Positions 39,487-45,041 of a DNA stretch of 45,041 nt are shown here, piece after piece. Both the position numbers and the translations under genes were made by a program. Positions within the stretch are counted from its first letter, which is position 1; each line of letters starts with the position of its first letter. Source of the stretch: a virus; IMG/VR virus record IMGVR_UViG_3300023443_000210, positions 1 to 45,041 of that record. One strand, 5' to 3'. Under the pieces are notes generated by a model, which had not been told where the DNA came from, did no database searches, and saw only the letters and a program-made list of their open reading frames with translations.

Positions 39487-39766
39487 AGTACCTAATGCAA
39501 TGAATCAGATTGAAGATCCAGAACCCGATTCTCACCCAGAACATACAACGACAGATGAGTTGATACAGCAACTAAGAATGAAACATAATGGTAAATACCT
39601 GTACGACCCCTTCTTACATATAGACGTTGCTGGCCGTCTTGAATCACAGCAAAAGAAGATTAAACGATATGAAGCGGCTCTAAATTTAATATCTGAAAAC
39701 TGTCATATTATGGATGATTTGACTTACTGTAATATGGCTTCTGATGCCCTTGAAGAAGAGAAATAG
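39479..39766 (+). CDS. Hypothetical early protein
   Basis: This 95-residue protein has an N-terminal acidic part and a C-terminal helix (AGRLESQQKKIKRYEAALNL). AGGAGGAGG lies before the start. It is not recognised. It stops 3 bases before the TATAATG promoter of the first clear pseudoknot element. Confidence 0.62.
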   Translation: MSEVPNAMNQIEDPEPDSHPEHTTTDELIQQLRMKHNGKYLYDPFLHIDVAGRLESQQKKIKRYEAALNLISENCHIMDDLTYCNMASDALEEEK

Positions 39767-39781
39767 TGTATAATGTTTAAC

Positions 39782-39856
39782 GTCGTGACAGACAATATTA
39801 CTAGCCCATCATCAATTCCAGTTCGTACCGAACTACTGTCACGACTTGGTGATGGG
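39782..39856 (+). ncRNA. Pseudoknotted leader RNA of an HNH gene (copy 1)
   Basis: TATAAT at 39769-39774 places +1 near 39782. From there P1 GTCGTGACAG (39782-39791) pairs perfectly with CTGTCACGAC (39836-39845). P2 CCCATCATCAA (39805-39815) pairs with TTGGTGATGGG (39846-39856) across P1', giving a pseudoknot. P3 AGTTCG/CGAACT (39820-39834) with loop TAC lies inside. Conserved unpaired GACAATATTACT links P1 and P2. The HNH start follows 15 bases later after GAGG. The element corresponds position by position to 42815-42891 with compensatory changes. A read-through ORF from 39773 exists but is disfavoured. Confidence 0.72.
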
Positions 39857-39871
39857 TATTTTGAGGTAGAG

Positions 39872-40343: not shown

Positions 40344-40658
40344 GTGAGTAATGAAACATGTATGTCCTGTGGAGGTTATATCAATAATATATTTCCACCT
40401 TTAGAGAATTGCCAAACCGTCCATTTATACGACGTATATTGTGACTACTATAGAAATAAAGCTAATCTCAAATCCCAACAAGCCAAAATATCGGAGTTAG
40501 AAAAACAATTAGATTACAGTGAACGAACACTAAGTAGTTACGCCAAACATCATAAAGGATGCAGGTTGAATGACCCGAGATATGATCCTGAGTGTAATTG
40601 TGGCCTAGAGGGATTTTTAGAAGATATCAAGGAAAGAAGATTAAATGACAGAAGGTAA
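40344..40658 (+). CDS. Cysteine-rich coiled-coil early protein
   Basis: This protein of about 104 residues starts with GTG at 40344, right after the HNH stop. It has CMSCGG near the N-terminus, a central coiled coil (ANLKSQQAKISELEKQLDY), and a C-terminal Cys/His cluster (CRLNDPRYDPECNCG). It is not recognised. It overlaps the next gene by 14 bases. Confidence 0.6.
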   Translation: MSNETCMSCGGYINNIFPPLENCQTVHLYDVYCDYYRNKANLKSQQAKISELEKQLDYSERTLSSYAKHHKGCRLNDPRYDPECNCGLEGFLEDIKERRLNDRR

Positions 40659-42764: not shown

Positions 42765-42814
42765 GCCAAGTGAGTTGCTACCGTGTCCTTACTGAATAGT
42801 GTATAATGCTTAAT

Positions 42815-42891
42815 GTCGTAGTGGACAAAATTACTGAACTCAATGCCGTCTCAGGAACTACCGTTCCACCACTACGATACGGTGTTGGGTT
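42815..42891 (+). ncRNA. Pseudoknotted leader RNA of an HNH gene (copy 2)
   Basis: TATAAT at 42802-42807 gives +1 near 42815. P1 GTCGTAGTGG (42815-42824) pairs with CCACTACGAT (42869-42878; one G-U). P2 AACTCAATGCCGT (42837-42849) pairs over 13 positions with ACGGTGTTGGGTT (42879-42891; three G-U) across P1'. P3 GGAAC/GTTCC with loop TACC (42854-42867) lies inside. Relative to copy 1 the P1 and P2 sequences differ at many positions but keep pairing, and spacer GACAAAATTACT is nearly unchanged. The HNH ATG follows 13 bases later. Confidence 0.72.
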
Positions 42892-42904
42892 TTTTGGGGA
42901 TAAG

Positions 42905-43288
42905 ATGAAAATAGAATGTAGAAAATGTAAAAAGGTTAAAGATGAAGATTGCTTCAATAAGGATCGACAGAAAAAATCAGGTCTGCACGAAAAATGTAAG
43001 ACGTGTTGTGCTGATTATCAAAAGAACGTGTTAAGGAAGCGTTGTTATTGGAAAAAATATAAAGGTAAAAACGGACATAAAAAACGATCAAAATGGGCTG
43101 TAAGAGATGCGCTGAACAGGGGTGAGTTGATAAAATTACCATGCCACATTTGTGACGATCCTAAAGTAGATGCGCACCATGAATCATATTTACCAGAACA
43201 TAAATTAGACGTCCTTTGGTTGTGTAAAAAACACCACTCTGAGAGACATTACGAATTAAAAACAGGGAAGATACAGCCTTATAACTAA
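42905..43288 (+). CDS. HNH endonuclease with N-terminal zinc finger (copy 3 of 3)
   Basis: This 127-residue protein has CRKCKKVKDEDCFNKDR and a CKTCCADY zinc finger, and a C-terminal HNH core CHICDDPKVDAHHESY...LDVLWLCKKHHSERH. It is the shortest of the three paralogues, with a reduced linker. The start at 42905 is chosen because the upstream in-frame part is the structured RNA. GGGGATAAG precedes the ATG. Confidence 0.82.
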   Translation: MKIECRKCKKVKDEDCFNKDRQKKSGLHEKCKTCCADYQKNVLRKRCYWKKYKGKNGHKKRSKWAVRDALNRGELIKLPCHICDDPKVDAHHESYLPEHKLDVLWLCKKHHSERHYELKTGKIQPYN

Positions 43289-43433
43289 CTAAAAAGACCC
43301 CGTTTTTCAACGAGGCCCTAATTTGAGAGAAGTAGCGTTACCAAGGAGAGTATCCCTTAGCAAAACTCGATAGCATATTATATTACTTATTTTAACTAAT
43401 TTGGTCATGTCCTAATTAGAATCTCCAAAAAAT
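43289..43433. other. Non-coding stretch after the last HNH gene
   Basis: GACCCCGTTTTTCAACGAGGCC (from 43296) can form a hairpin with two mismatches, preceded on the minus strand side by a T-run, so it could terminate leftward transcripts. A 17-mer TTGGTCATGTCCTAATT (43401-43417) repeats the reverse complement of 1234-1250. AAGTAGCGTTAC at 43332 resembles the loop of the two downstream RNA elements but has no stem. Otherwise nothing is seen. Confidence 0.4.
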
Positions 43434-43488
43434 GTGGTAGGATTATGGTATGAAATTTAGACATCGACCTTACACGAACCACTTTTTT
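43434..43488 (+). terminator. Terminator-like nested hairpin with T6
   Basis: GTGGT (43434-43438) pairs with ACCAC (43478-43482) and is followed directly by TTTTTT. Inside, GGTATG (43447-43452) pairs with CAT and ACC (43462-43469). It would end the rightward early transcript about 145 bases after the HNH stop, or be the 3' end of a small RNA. Confidence 0.5.
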
Positions 43489-43513
43489 ATAGCTAATTAG
43501 GGGCATTTATAAT

Positions 43514-43581
43514 GGTGTTATCATAAGTTTAAAAGTTTTAATTGTCCTTAGGGAAGTAGTTACCCCTAAAGGAATAACATC
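43514..43581 (+). ncRNA. Structured RNA candidate with AAGTAGTTAC loop (family B, copy 1)
   Basis: GGTGTTAT (43514-43521) pairs with ATAACATC (43574-43581). An inner hairpin CCTTAGGG (43546-43553) with CCCTAAAGG (43564-43572, one bulged A) presents the 10-nt loop AAGTAGTTAC. It is preceded by TATAAT (43508-43513). GTTTAAAA (43527-43534) could also pair with TTTTAAAC downstream (43613-43620). The same loop and outer-stem arrangement recur at 43694-43807. No ORF covers it. Confidence 0.58.
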
Positions 43582-43693
43582 GAAGTGCTAAGTAAGTGTT
43601 TCCTAATTGGCATTTTAAACGCGTTTCTAGGCGGGGTCTAAGGGGTTTAGGGTAATTAACATGAGATACTATCTTATGTTATAATGTAGTTGT

Positions 43694-43807
43694 GTTGATT
43701 GACCGGTGATTGTACAATGATATCATAGGAAAAAATTAAGATGTTTTTAGGAAGTAGTTAGCCTAGAAATAAAATGATATCGGTTTCAACTATCATCGCC
43801 AATCAAC
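43694..43807 (+). ncRNA. Long hairpin RNA candidate with AAGTAGTTAG loop (family B, copy 2)
   Basis: An extended -10 TGTTATAAT (hexamer 43680-43685) places +1 near 43693, the base of an 8-bp stem GTTGATTG (43694-43701) with CAATCAAC (43800-43807). Nested stems follow: CGGTGAT with ATCATCG, GATATCAT (43719-43726) with ATGATATC (43774-43781), and TTTTTAGG (43744-43751) with CCTAGAAA (43762-43769), capped by loop AAGTAGTTAG. There is no ORF. It lies 11 bases before the 3' end of the antisense leucine-body tRNA. Confidence 0.62.
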
Positions 43808-43818
43808 CATTTTAACAA

Positions 43819-43900
43819 TAGACGGGGTGGGCTTCGAACCCACACGGAGTTACCCACAGAGGTTTCAATTCTGCGCGTCTGCCAATTTCGCCACCCGCCC
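43819..43900 (-). tRNA. Class II tRNA with leucine-type body but GAA anticodon
   Basis: The 82-nt cloverleaf has acceptor GGGCGGG/CCCGTCT, D arm GCG AAATTGGCAGA CGC, a 13-nt variable arm TGGGTAACTCCGT, T arm GTGGG TTCGAAG CCCAC, and discriminator A73. These are leucine-tRNA features. The anticodon stem CAGAA/CTCTG (A31-C39 mismatch) presents loop TTGAAAC, so the anticodon is GAA (phenylalanine codons; template TTC at 43864-43866). G1-U72 is unusual. No CCA is encoded. It may be a misacylating, inactive or regulatory tRNA. Confidence 0.72.
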
Positions 43901-43924
43901 TAAAATAAATACTTATTCTAAGAT

Positions 43925-44880
43925 GGTGGCAGTATAGCTAATTCTCTGAGATTGTCTCTATCCGTTTAAATCAACTAAATCCCCAACAGTCCAAGCTTCA
44001 TTAGCCACCCCAAGAGCTACGGCCGGAGTTTGTTTGATACTAGTATGGATTTTGACAAAGTTGTAGTAAGCAAAATGCAACCCCATAGCAGCCTTAAAGT
44101 TTACAAGCTTCTTACTGAAAGCATTCGTCAACCTTGCTAACCTTTTACAGTGCATACGTACTGTTAAGTTCTGCCTCTCAATATGCGATGTACAAACAAG
44201 TTTCATATCTGGCTCACCAATTAGCGCTGTCTTACTTATTGAAACAACATGACCTGGACTGTAACGACCCTTACCGTATGGAGCGATCTTGTGTCTCTTC
44301 TGGATGTATGTCTTTACCACTTGCCCGTAGTCAATATTGTTACCAAACTCGTCTTCGATAGCATATATGTATGGCTTCAACGAATCAGAACTAAGTTGGA
44401 TCCTATGATTAAGACGACTGGCTAAATCCCGTATGAACTCAGTGGTCATCTCCCTATCCCTGTCGCTGACGACTTTGAAACATGGTACGGCTTTGCTATC
44501 TGGGTCTAGAGCGATATAAGTCCAGGCATGTCCTAATCCTTGAGCCTTCTCTTCATCATTGGTATTCTTTTGTTTCTTACCTATGAAGCCCCAGATTTCA
44601 TCGACTTCTATTTTGGAACAGTTAAGGTTGACCATAGTTTGCTTGAGCCACTTCTCACACTGATTACCAATTTGTACGCCTAATCTCATGATGGTATCTC
44701 GGTGAATACCCGTCATACGCTCTACTGATCTAATACTGGAACCTTCGACTAATGCTGAAATAACTTGGATTTGTTTGTCTTTAGATAGTTTGTTCATCTT
44801 TTATCCATTCATGTTATAATAAAAGACAGACAAGACCAGTTGGCGCCGAATGAAAGCGTTACTTAACCTTGCCTGCCACG
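43925..44880 (-). mobile_element. Possible IS1-family element around the transposase
   Basis: The transposase gene is flanked by GGTGGCAG (43925-43932) and, inverted, CTGCCACG (44873-44880). The match is 7 bases (GTGGCAG/CTGCCAC) plus scattered identities inward. No clear target duplication is visible. The boundaries are therefore tentative and the insertion may be old or decayed. Confidence 0.4.
43958..44797 (-). CDS. IS1-family DDE transposase
   Basis: This 279-residue intact frame has an N-terminal helix-turn-helix (SIRSVERMTGIHRDTIMRLG, about 21-40) and a DDE core with Asp66 (EVDEIWGFIGKK), Asp138 (SSDSLKPY) and Glu207 (HIERQNLTVR). The IS1-typical tail is AFSKKLVNFKAAMGLHFAYY. No programmed frameshift is needed. 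It lies between two tRNA-like genes, with a TATAAT on the opposite strand at 44815. It could be a recent insertion or a resident gene used by the phage. Confidence 0.85.
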   Translation of the reverse strand: MNKLSKDKQIQVISALVEGSSIRSVERMTGIHRDTIMRLGVQIGNQCEKWLKQTMVNLNCSKIEVDEIWGFIGKKQKNTNDEEKAQGLGHAWTYIALDPDSKAVPCFKVVSDRDREMTTEFIRDLASRLNHRIQLSSDSLKPYIYAIEDEFGNNIDYGQVVKTYIQKRHKIAPYGKGRYSPGHVVSISKTALIGEPDMKLVCTSHIERQNLTVRMHCKRLARLTNAFSKKLVNFKAAMGLHFAYYNFVKIHTSIKQTPAVALGVANEAWTVGDLVDLNG

Positions 44881-44890
44881 GTAAAAATGA

Positions 44891-44978
44891 TGCCCCCAGC
44901 AAGGCTCGAACTTGCGACTTCTGAGAACGGTCCTCCAACCTTTTTTCTCAGATGTGATACCAATTTCACCACAGGGAC
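44891..44978 (-). tRNA. Non-canonical tRNA with a long anticodon arm
   Basis: Acceptor GTCCCTG/TGGGGGC, D arm GTG AAATTGGTAT CAC and T arm GCAAG TTCGAGC CTTGC all fit a tRNA, discriminator A, no CCA. The anticodon arm is 33 nt: TCTGAGAA (44952-44945) pairs over 8 bp with TTCTCAGA (44927-44920), enclosing 17 nt with a possible GG/CC mini-stem and loop TTGGAGGA. The expected arm is 17 nt, so there is an extra 16 nt. A GGA (serine) anticodon after UU in the apical loop is possible. It may be interrupted, intron-like or a mimic. Confidence 0.58.
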
Positions 44979-45041
44979 ATTAACCTTTAACCTTTCCATT
45001 TAGAATCATAGCGAAAATAACCAGGTTCATCGCCAGTAGGG
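44898..45041. repeat. Right copy of 144-bp terminal direct repeat
   Basis: This copy is identical to bases 1-144, and the copies join the long-arm tRNA and the 90-482 gene into a continuous sequence when circularised. Confidence 0.95.

Follow-up and report, generated by a model that had tools for sequence, protein, structure and literature searches.

Two related long hairpins, most likely RNAs, share a nearly unchanged ten-base loop in a phage genome

Non-coding RNAs of phages are poorly catalogued, and few of them show clear covariation within one genome. In the tRNA cluster of phage T4, two stable RNAs, C and D, are small, structured and of unknown function, and are co-transcribed with the tRNAs. 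Phages also carry RNA mimics of type III antitoxins, which consist of short, pseudoknot-forming repeats (about 35 nt) and could neutralize a host protein. Many bacterial small RNAs present an exposed loop or an A/U-rich single strand next to their hairpins.

The window analysed here is a single virus record from IMG/VR, IMGVR_UViG_3300023443_000210, of 45,041 bases, in which two structured elements lie in tandem between an HNH gene and a tRNA gene. They resemble the type III mimics in being tandem structured phage RNAs and differ from them in forming hairpins of about 120 nt that are spaced 200 nt apart, without a toxin-like neighbour. A type III toxin–antitoxin RNA was rejected as a candidate: the locus contains no short tandem repeats, and ten nearby proteins matched no ToxN-like model and gave weak coiled-coil-like matches only. 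The RNA pair is apparently undescribed.

Two hairpins derived from a common ancestor

Both elements are long hairpins of about 120 bases on the + strand, with 19 pairs in the outer helix, nine in the middle helix and 9–10 in the apical helix. Copy 1 (43491–43612; −34.0 kcal/mol, z −3.5) forms 37 pairs, distributed over the outer helix (43492–43510/43592–43611), the middle helix (43513–43521/43574–43582) and the apical helix (43545–43553/43564–43573). A one-sided, A/U-rich 5′ bulge of 23 nt (43522–43544) precedes the apical helix, which is capped by the 10-nt loop AAGTAGTTAC (43554–43563). Copy 2 (43691–43809; −32.3 kcal/mol, z −4.0) repeats this layout, with an outer helix that has small interruptions (43691–43713/43789–43809), a middle helix (43718–43726/43774–43782), a shorter A/U-rich bulge of 15 nt (43727–43741), an apical helix (43742–43751/43762–43771) and the 10-nt loop AAGTAGTTAG (43752–43761). 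For each copy, one of 500 dinucleotide shuffles folded as well. In both, a short asymmetric internal loop separates the outer from the middle helix, and the middle helix starts with the same U-G pair. The bulge sequence is not conserved between the copies. The RNA loops, AAGUAGUUAC in copy 1 and AAGUAGUUAG in copy 2, differ at the last base and can be written as AAGUAGUUA(C/G).

A short start-to-stop reading frame is present at corresponding positions in the two RNAs, ATG GTG TTA TCA TAA in copy 1 and ATG ATA TCA TAG in copy 2. The frames sit at the start of the middle helix (about 43512–43526 and 43717–43728), behind a purine-rich or GGTGA stretch, and their coincidence is probably due to chance.

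A covariance model was built with copy 1 as its only sequence and searched over the whole window up to an E value of 10. It recovered copy 2 at full length and in the same orientation (30.6 bits, E 8.5e-6); beyond the two copies, nothing was found in the 45-kb window. The copies are identical at 63 of 111 aligned bases (57%). In an alignment fitted to the structure, which is a single comparison of only two sequences, both in one genome, 18 of the 37 pairs are unchanged, 13 are changed on both sides and still paired, and two contain a broken cell; the remaining pairs show a one-sided change or a gap. Paired cells make up 97% of this alignment versus 31–54% when one side is slid by 1–3 columns, and the slid controls yield 0–2 compensatory pairs versus 13. 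Eight of these compensations fall in the outer helix, two in the middle helix and three in the apical helix; exactly which positions covary is tied to the structural alignment, since a plain sequence alignment shifts the register of the middle helix.

With only two sequences, both about 66% A/T, it might be argued that two A/T-rich hairpins resemble each other by chance. We consider this scarcely credible: the model match is unique in the window at its E value, and none of 500 shuffles reached any of the five pair measures. Homology is thus accompanied by a structure with compensatory change, as in a structured-RNA family, here with two members. We conclude that the two copies derive from a common ancestor and that the three-part hairpin has been kept under selection. 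The loop together with its closing pairs forms the longest near-identical stretch between the copies, though the loop itself is unpaired; apart from its last base it stayed the same, as compensated changes accumulated in the helices.

An initial annotation of this locus had described both elements with their stems and loops, which are present and read as described, and had placed them in one structured-RNA family, which the model search and the covariation bear out. It had put the start of the feature at 43508 and allowed an outer stem to copy 2 only; the element limits given above begin further upstream, and copy 1 has an outer helix of its own. Stem covariation had been noted at two positions, and its extent is larger, with compensatory pairs in all three helices.

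The strand of the structure can be read from its G-U pairs, seven in copy 1 and five in copy 2. On the opposite strand, these 12 pairs become A/C mismatches and the fold is 9.5 kcal/mol worse for each copy, so the structure most likely belongs to a + strand RNA rather than to a DNA cruciform. Such use of G-U pairs is typical of RNA and makes it very improbable that the elements act as single-stranded DNA hairpins, for instance as an origin, a recombination site or a mobile repeat, even though they are intergenic, lie near a transposase gene and are flanked, together with the tRNA gene, by an exact 11-bp direct repeat, TATAGCTAATT, at 43488–43498 and 43933–43943. An integron attC site was rejected as well: simple sites of the type RYYYAAC/GTTRRRY are missing, and the ends read GCTAATTAGG/CCTAATTGGC and GTTGATTG/CAATCAAC.

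Genomic setting, promoters and transcript ends

The record has identical 144-bp ends (1–144 and 44898–45041), which represent a terminal repeat or a circular assembly; the phage genome, of 44.9 kb, is on this evidence probably complete or almost complete. Its genes include those for a major capsid protein (phrog_1328), a portal-like head–tail adaptor, a terminase, an exonuclease, a Sak4-like protein and a helicase. Relatives of the capsid protein include those of uncultured groundwater phages and of a Pelagibacter phage, with at most 40% identity where the record is cultured or named; one short viral contig reaches 69%. A Shine–Dalgarno motif precedes 21 of 37 genes versus a background of 9%, suggesting that the host is probably not a member of the Bacteroidota.

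The two elements lie in a stretch of about 530 bases (43289–43818) without any open reading frame of 60 codons, somewhat longer than the 450 bases of empty sequence in the initial annotation. It is bounded by the rightward HNH gene, which ends at 43288, and by a leftward tRNA gene (43819–43900, − strand), followed by a leftward gene for an IS1-like transposase (43958–44797). The tRNA is called as Phe (GAA) and has a long variable arm and Leu-like features, so its identity may be mixed. A further tRNA-like sequence at 44893–44980 (− strand) has a typical T-arm and an enlarged anticodon loop region and overlaps the terminal repeat; neither ARAGORN nor Rfam called it. The leaders of two HNH genes (39762–39870 and 42795–42900) have in common the sequence TATAATG(T/C)TTAA(C/T)GTCGT. 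Each leader can form two overlapping helices, for example GUCGUGACAG/CUGUCACGAC versus CCCAUCAUCAA/UUGGUGAUGGG, and could thereby adopt a pseudoknot or act as a two-state switch. The second of these has a T-run after its downstream strand.

The best promoter match of the region, judged by consensus only, lies directly before copy 2 (43656–43685, + strand): a σ70-type TTAACA–18 nt–TATAAT with a TG before the −10 box, matching the consensus at 11 of 12 positions. It puts the +1 at about 43691–43693, the first base of the outer helix, in agreement with the earlier proposal that the outer stem of copy 2 starts at the predicted transcript start. The TAYAAT box named in that proposal needs a correction: the TACAAT of copy 2 lies inside the RNA (about 43713–43718), and the likely −10 box is the TATAAT at 43680–43685. 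Copy 2 is thus predicted to be transcribed from its own σ70 promoter, starting at the outer helix. Inside copy 1, a TATAAT belongs to a weaker match (10 of 12), but the resulting start would fall within the middle helix, which suggests that copy 1 may instead be read from the upstream HNH operon. The suggestion in the initial annotation that the elements could be phage small RNAs is therefore strengthened for copy 2 by its promoter match, and copy 1 is without a convincing promoter of its own. Overall, we rate the evidence for common descent and structural selection as good and that for the expression of copy 2, judged from its promoter sequence, as fair.

Directly 3′ of the outer helix, CATTTTAA occurs at 43611–43618 in copy 1 and at 43808–43815 in copy 2; the AUUUUAA in the transcript forms a weak U-tract of four U at which both RNAs are predicted to end. 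An intrinsic terminator, consisting of a G+C-rich hairpin and a U-run, was rejected as an identity for the elements, as the outer helices are followed by UUUU only. A terminator scan of 43250–44000 found no intrinsic terminator on the + strand. The only terminator-like site of the region is a hairpin on the − strand (43294–43319), assigned to the leftward tRNA/transposase unit, and its position suggests that leftward transcripts would cross both elements antisense.

The elements might also act in cis, as tandem 3′ hairpins of the rightward HNH operon that stop or protect its transcript and shield the convergent tRNA and transposase genes from polymerase. They lie directly downstream of that operon, with no + strand terminator between 43288 and copy 1, and AUUUUAA follows both outer helices; the same loop also caps true intrinsic terminators of other phages (see below). 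A plain terminator, however, needs neither a one-sided bulge of 15–23 nt nor an unchanged loop, and the weak U-tract and the strong promoter match directly before copy 2 speak against such a role. We regard it as unlikely, while giving it appreciable weight.

The loop and its possible partners

The loop is the sole part of the RNA that is unpaired, exposed and nearly unchanged. Conservation of a loop above helices that drift with compensation usually signals that a partner recognizes the loop. Our leading explanation, to which we give a little less than an even chance, is that the elements are paralogous small RNAs of the phage, each about 120 nt long and transcribed from the + strand, which present the loop to a partner acting in trans, probably a protein. 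The long helix would protect the RNA and present AAGUAGUUA(C/G), and the RNA would act as a binding partner or as a titrating decoy. A second copy would increase the dose or, through the C or G that ends the loop, provide two specificities. A paralogue pair that keeps one loop leads to the hypothesis that this loop is a binding site, and also provides a probe for pull-down.

Base pairing was considered in several forms. As antisense small RNAs, the elements would pair with target mRNAs via the loop or the A/U-rich 5′ bulge, both of which are single-stranded and next to hairpins, and the leaders of both HNH genes contain AACUAC, which is complementary to six loop bases. Matches of six bases are expected by chance, however, the bulge sequences differ between the copies, and near-matches to the reverse complement of the loop are no commoner in the window than expected (20 versus 19). 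An antisense target of the kind that the initial annotation had suggested looking for is hence not indicated within the phage genome, and we consider an antisense role improbable. Pairing of the loop with the 5′ bulge, as in an H-type pseudoknot, would involve only 7 bp in copy 1, three of them G-U, and 5 bp in copy 2, one of them G-U, and is weak and unequal. A possible complementarity of the loop to 16S rRNA was set aside, because matches this short arise by chance. The chance-level frequency of the reverse complement and the weak, unequal loop–bulge pairing lead us to favour a protein partner over base pairing.

The pattern AAGTAGTTAS occurs three times in the window versus 0.35 expected; the third occurrence, at 40532, lies in a coding gene without a hairpin. 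Scans of viral contigs, in which the loop had to be closed by two G-C pairs, returned mostly coding-like matches without a hairpin. AAGTAGTTAG caps helices of 8–10 bp in five lineages: L030, the 188-kb phage L128, a phage group related to Nonlabens phages (L161, L167, L172, L179 and others; the L161/L179 group), L426 and L436. In three of the five, the hairpin is followed by a T-run, as in an intrinsic terminator. The loop hairpins of L436 and L037 were set aside, being probably in coding sequence. In L426, a tRNA gene and a promoter-like sequence lie upstream of the hairpin and a separate terminator follows it, and the unit looks like a discrete small RNA. Helix-capping lineages amounted to 5 of 34 with G at the tenth loop base versus 1 of 61 with another base (Fisher p 0.02), and to 3 of 15 versus 1 of 42 in an equally sampled subset (p 0.05). 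This excess of AAGTAGTTAG on hairpins of other phages is no more than suggestive.

In one Flavobacteriaceae chromosome (L359), the loop is present on a terminator. The Flavobacteriaceae genomes as a whole gave 20 loop matches versus about 58 for the reversed pattern, with a single hairpin, that of L359, and thus make no general use of the loop. The intergenic unit concerned (L359, 4150–4460) carries, besides the terminator with the loop AAGTAGTTAG, a TATATTTG box and a hairpin of 10 bp, AATTGAAACT/AGTTTCAATT, and is possibly a small RNA gene. Among cultured phages, short terminator queries returned no match for the real loop and five partial matches for the reversed control.

A broader explanation would treat AAGUAGUUAG closed by G-C pairs as a portable RNA loop module. 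Unrelated phages would have put it on their terminators and small RNAs, either for its recognition by a specific partner or for its folding into an unusually stable loop, and the two RNAs described here would be its most elaborate carriers. We hold this to be doubtful. If true, the presence of one loop module on terminators of unrelated phages would suggest that phage infections share an RNA-recognition event.

Relatives and comparison with known systems

The full element is known from this phage only. Among the 4227 models of Rfam, only tRNA models match the window, and no family reaches its gathering cut-off in the region; at E values up to 10, the region gives chance-level matches, such as greA at 18.8 bits versus a cut-off of 60. 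DNA similarity searches with the region found nothing in cultured phages, and plasmids matched the tRNA only. No relatives were found in viral contigs by terminase or transposase. In 50 phage records, most of them related by major capsid protein and many of them fragments, loop hairpins were not above chance, and the full model gave weak matches only, the best of which (E 0.002) lies where the loop is absent. Among the matches listed for 399 genomes from the phylum of Pseudomonas, none passed strict filters with the full model. The L359 locus scores 28.6 bits (E 6e-4) and was not accepted as a member, because it had been chosen for its loop and because L179 reaches 23 bits at an unrelated site. 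Literature searches on the loop returned nothing relevant, with titles mostly on primers and microRNAs and nothing on phage terminator loops. On the refuting condition that the initial annotation had set for homologues, the outcome is mixed: these searches found none of the full element outside this genome, and what recurs in other phages is the loop-capped hairpin.

Like RNAs C and D of T4, the elements are two small structured phage RNAs beside phage tRNA genes. They differ from these in lying on the strand opposite the tRNA, and no Rfam model other than tRNA matches the region. The terminators of L030, L128 and the L161/L179 group present the same 10-nt loop, closed by G-C, on a helix of 9–10 bp; they differ in the T-runs that follow the hairpin and in having neither middle nor outer helix, and the full-length model (R2) found no convincing match on them. 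The L426 unit, on a phage contig with a promoter sequence of the TTTG/TATCTTTG type, has a separate three-hairpin layout with its own terminator and without the bulged long hairpin. It nevertheless resembles our pair in combining a hairpin with the same loop, a promoter-like sequence and a tRNA gene upstream.
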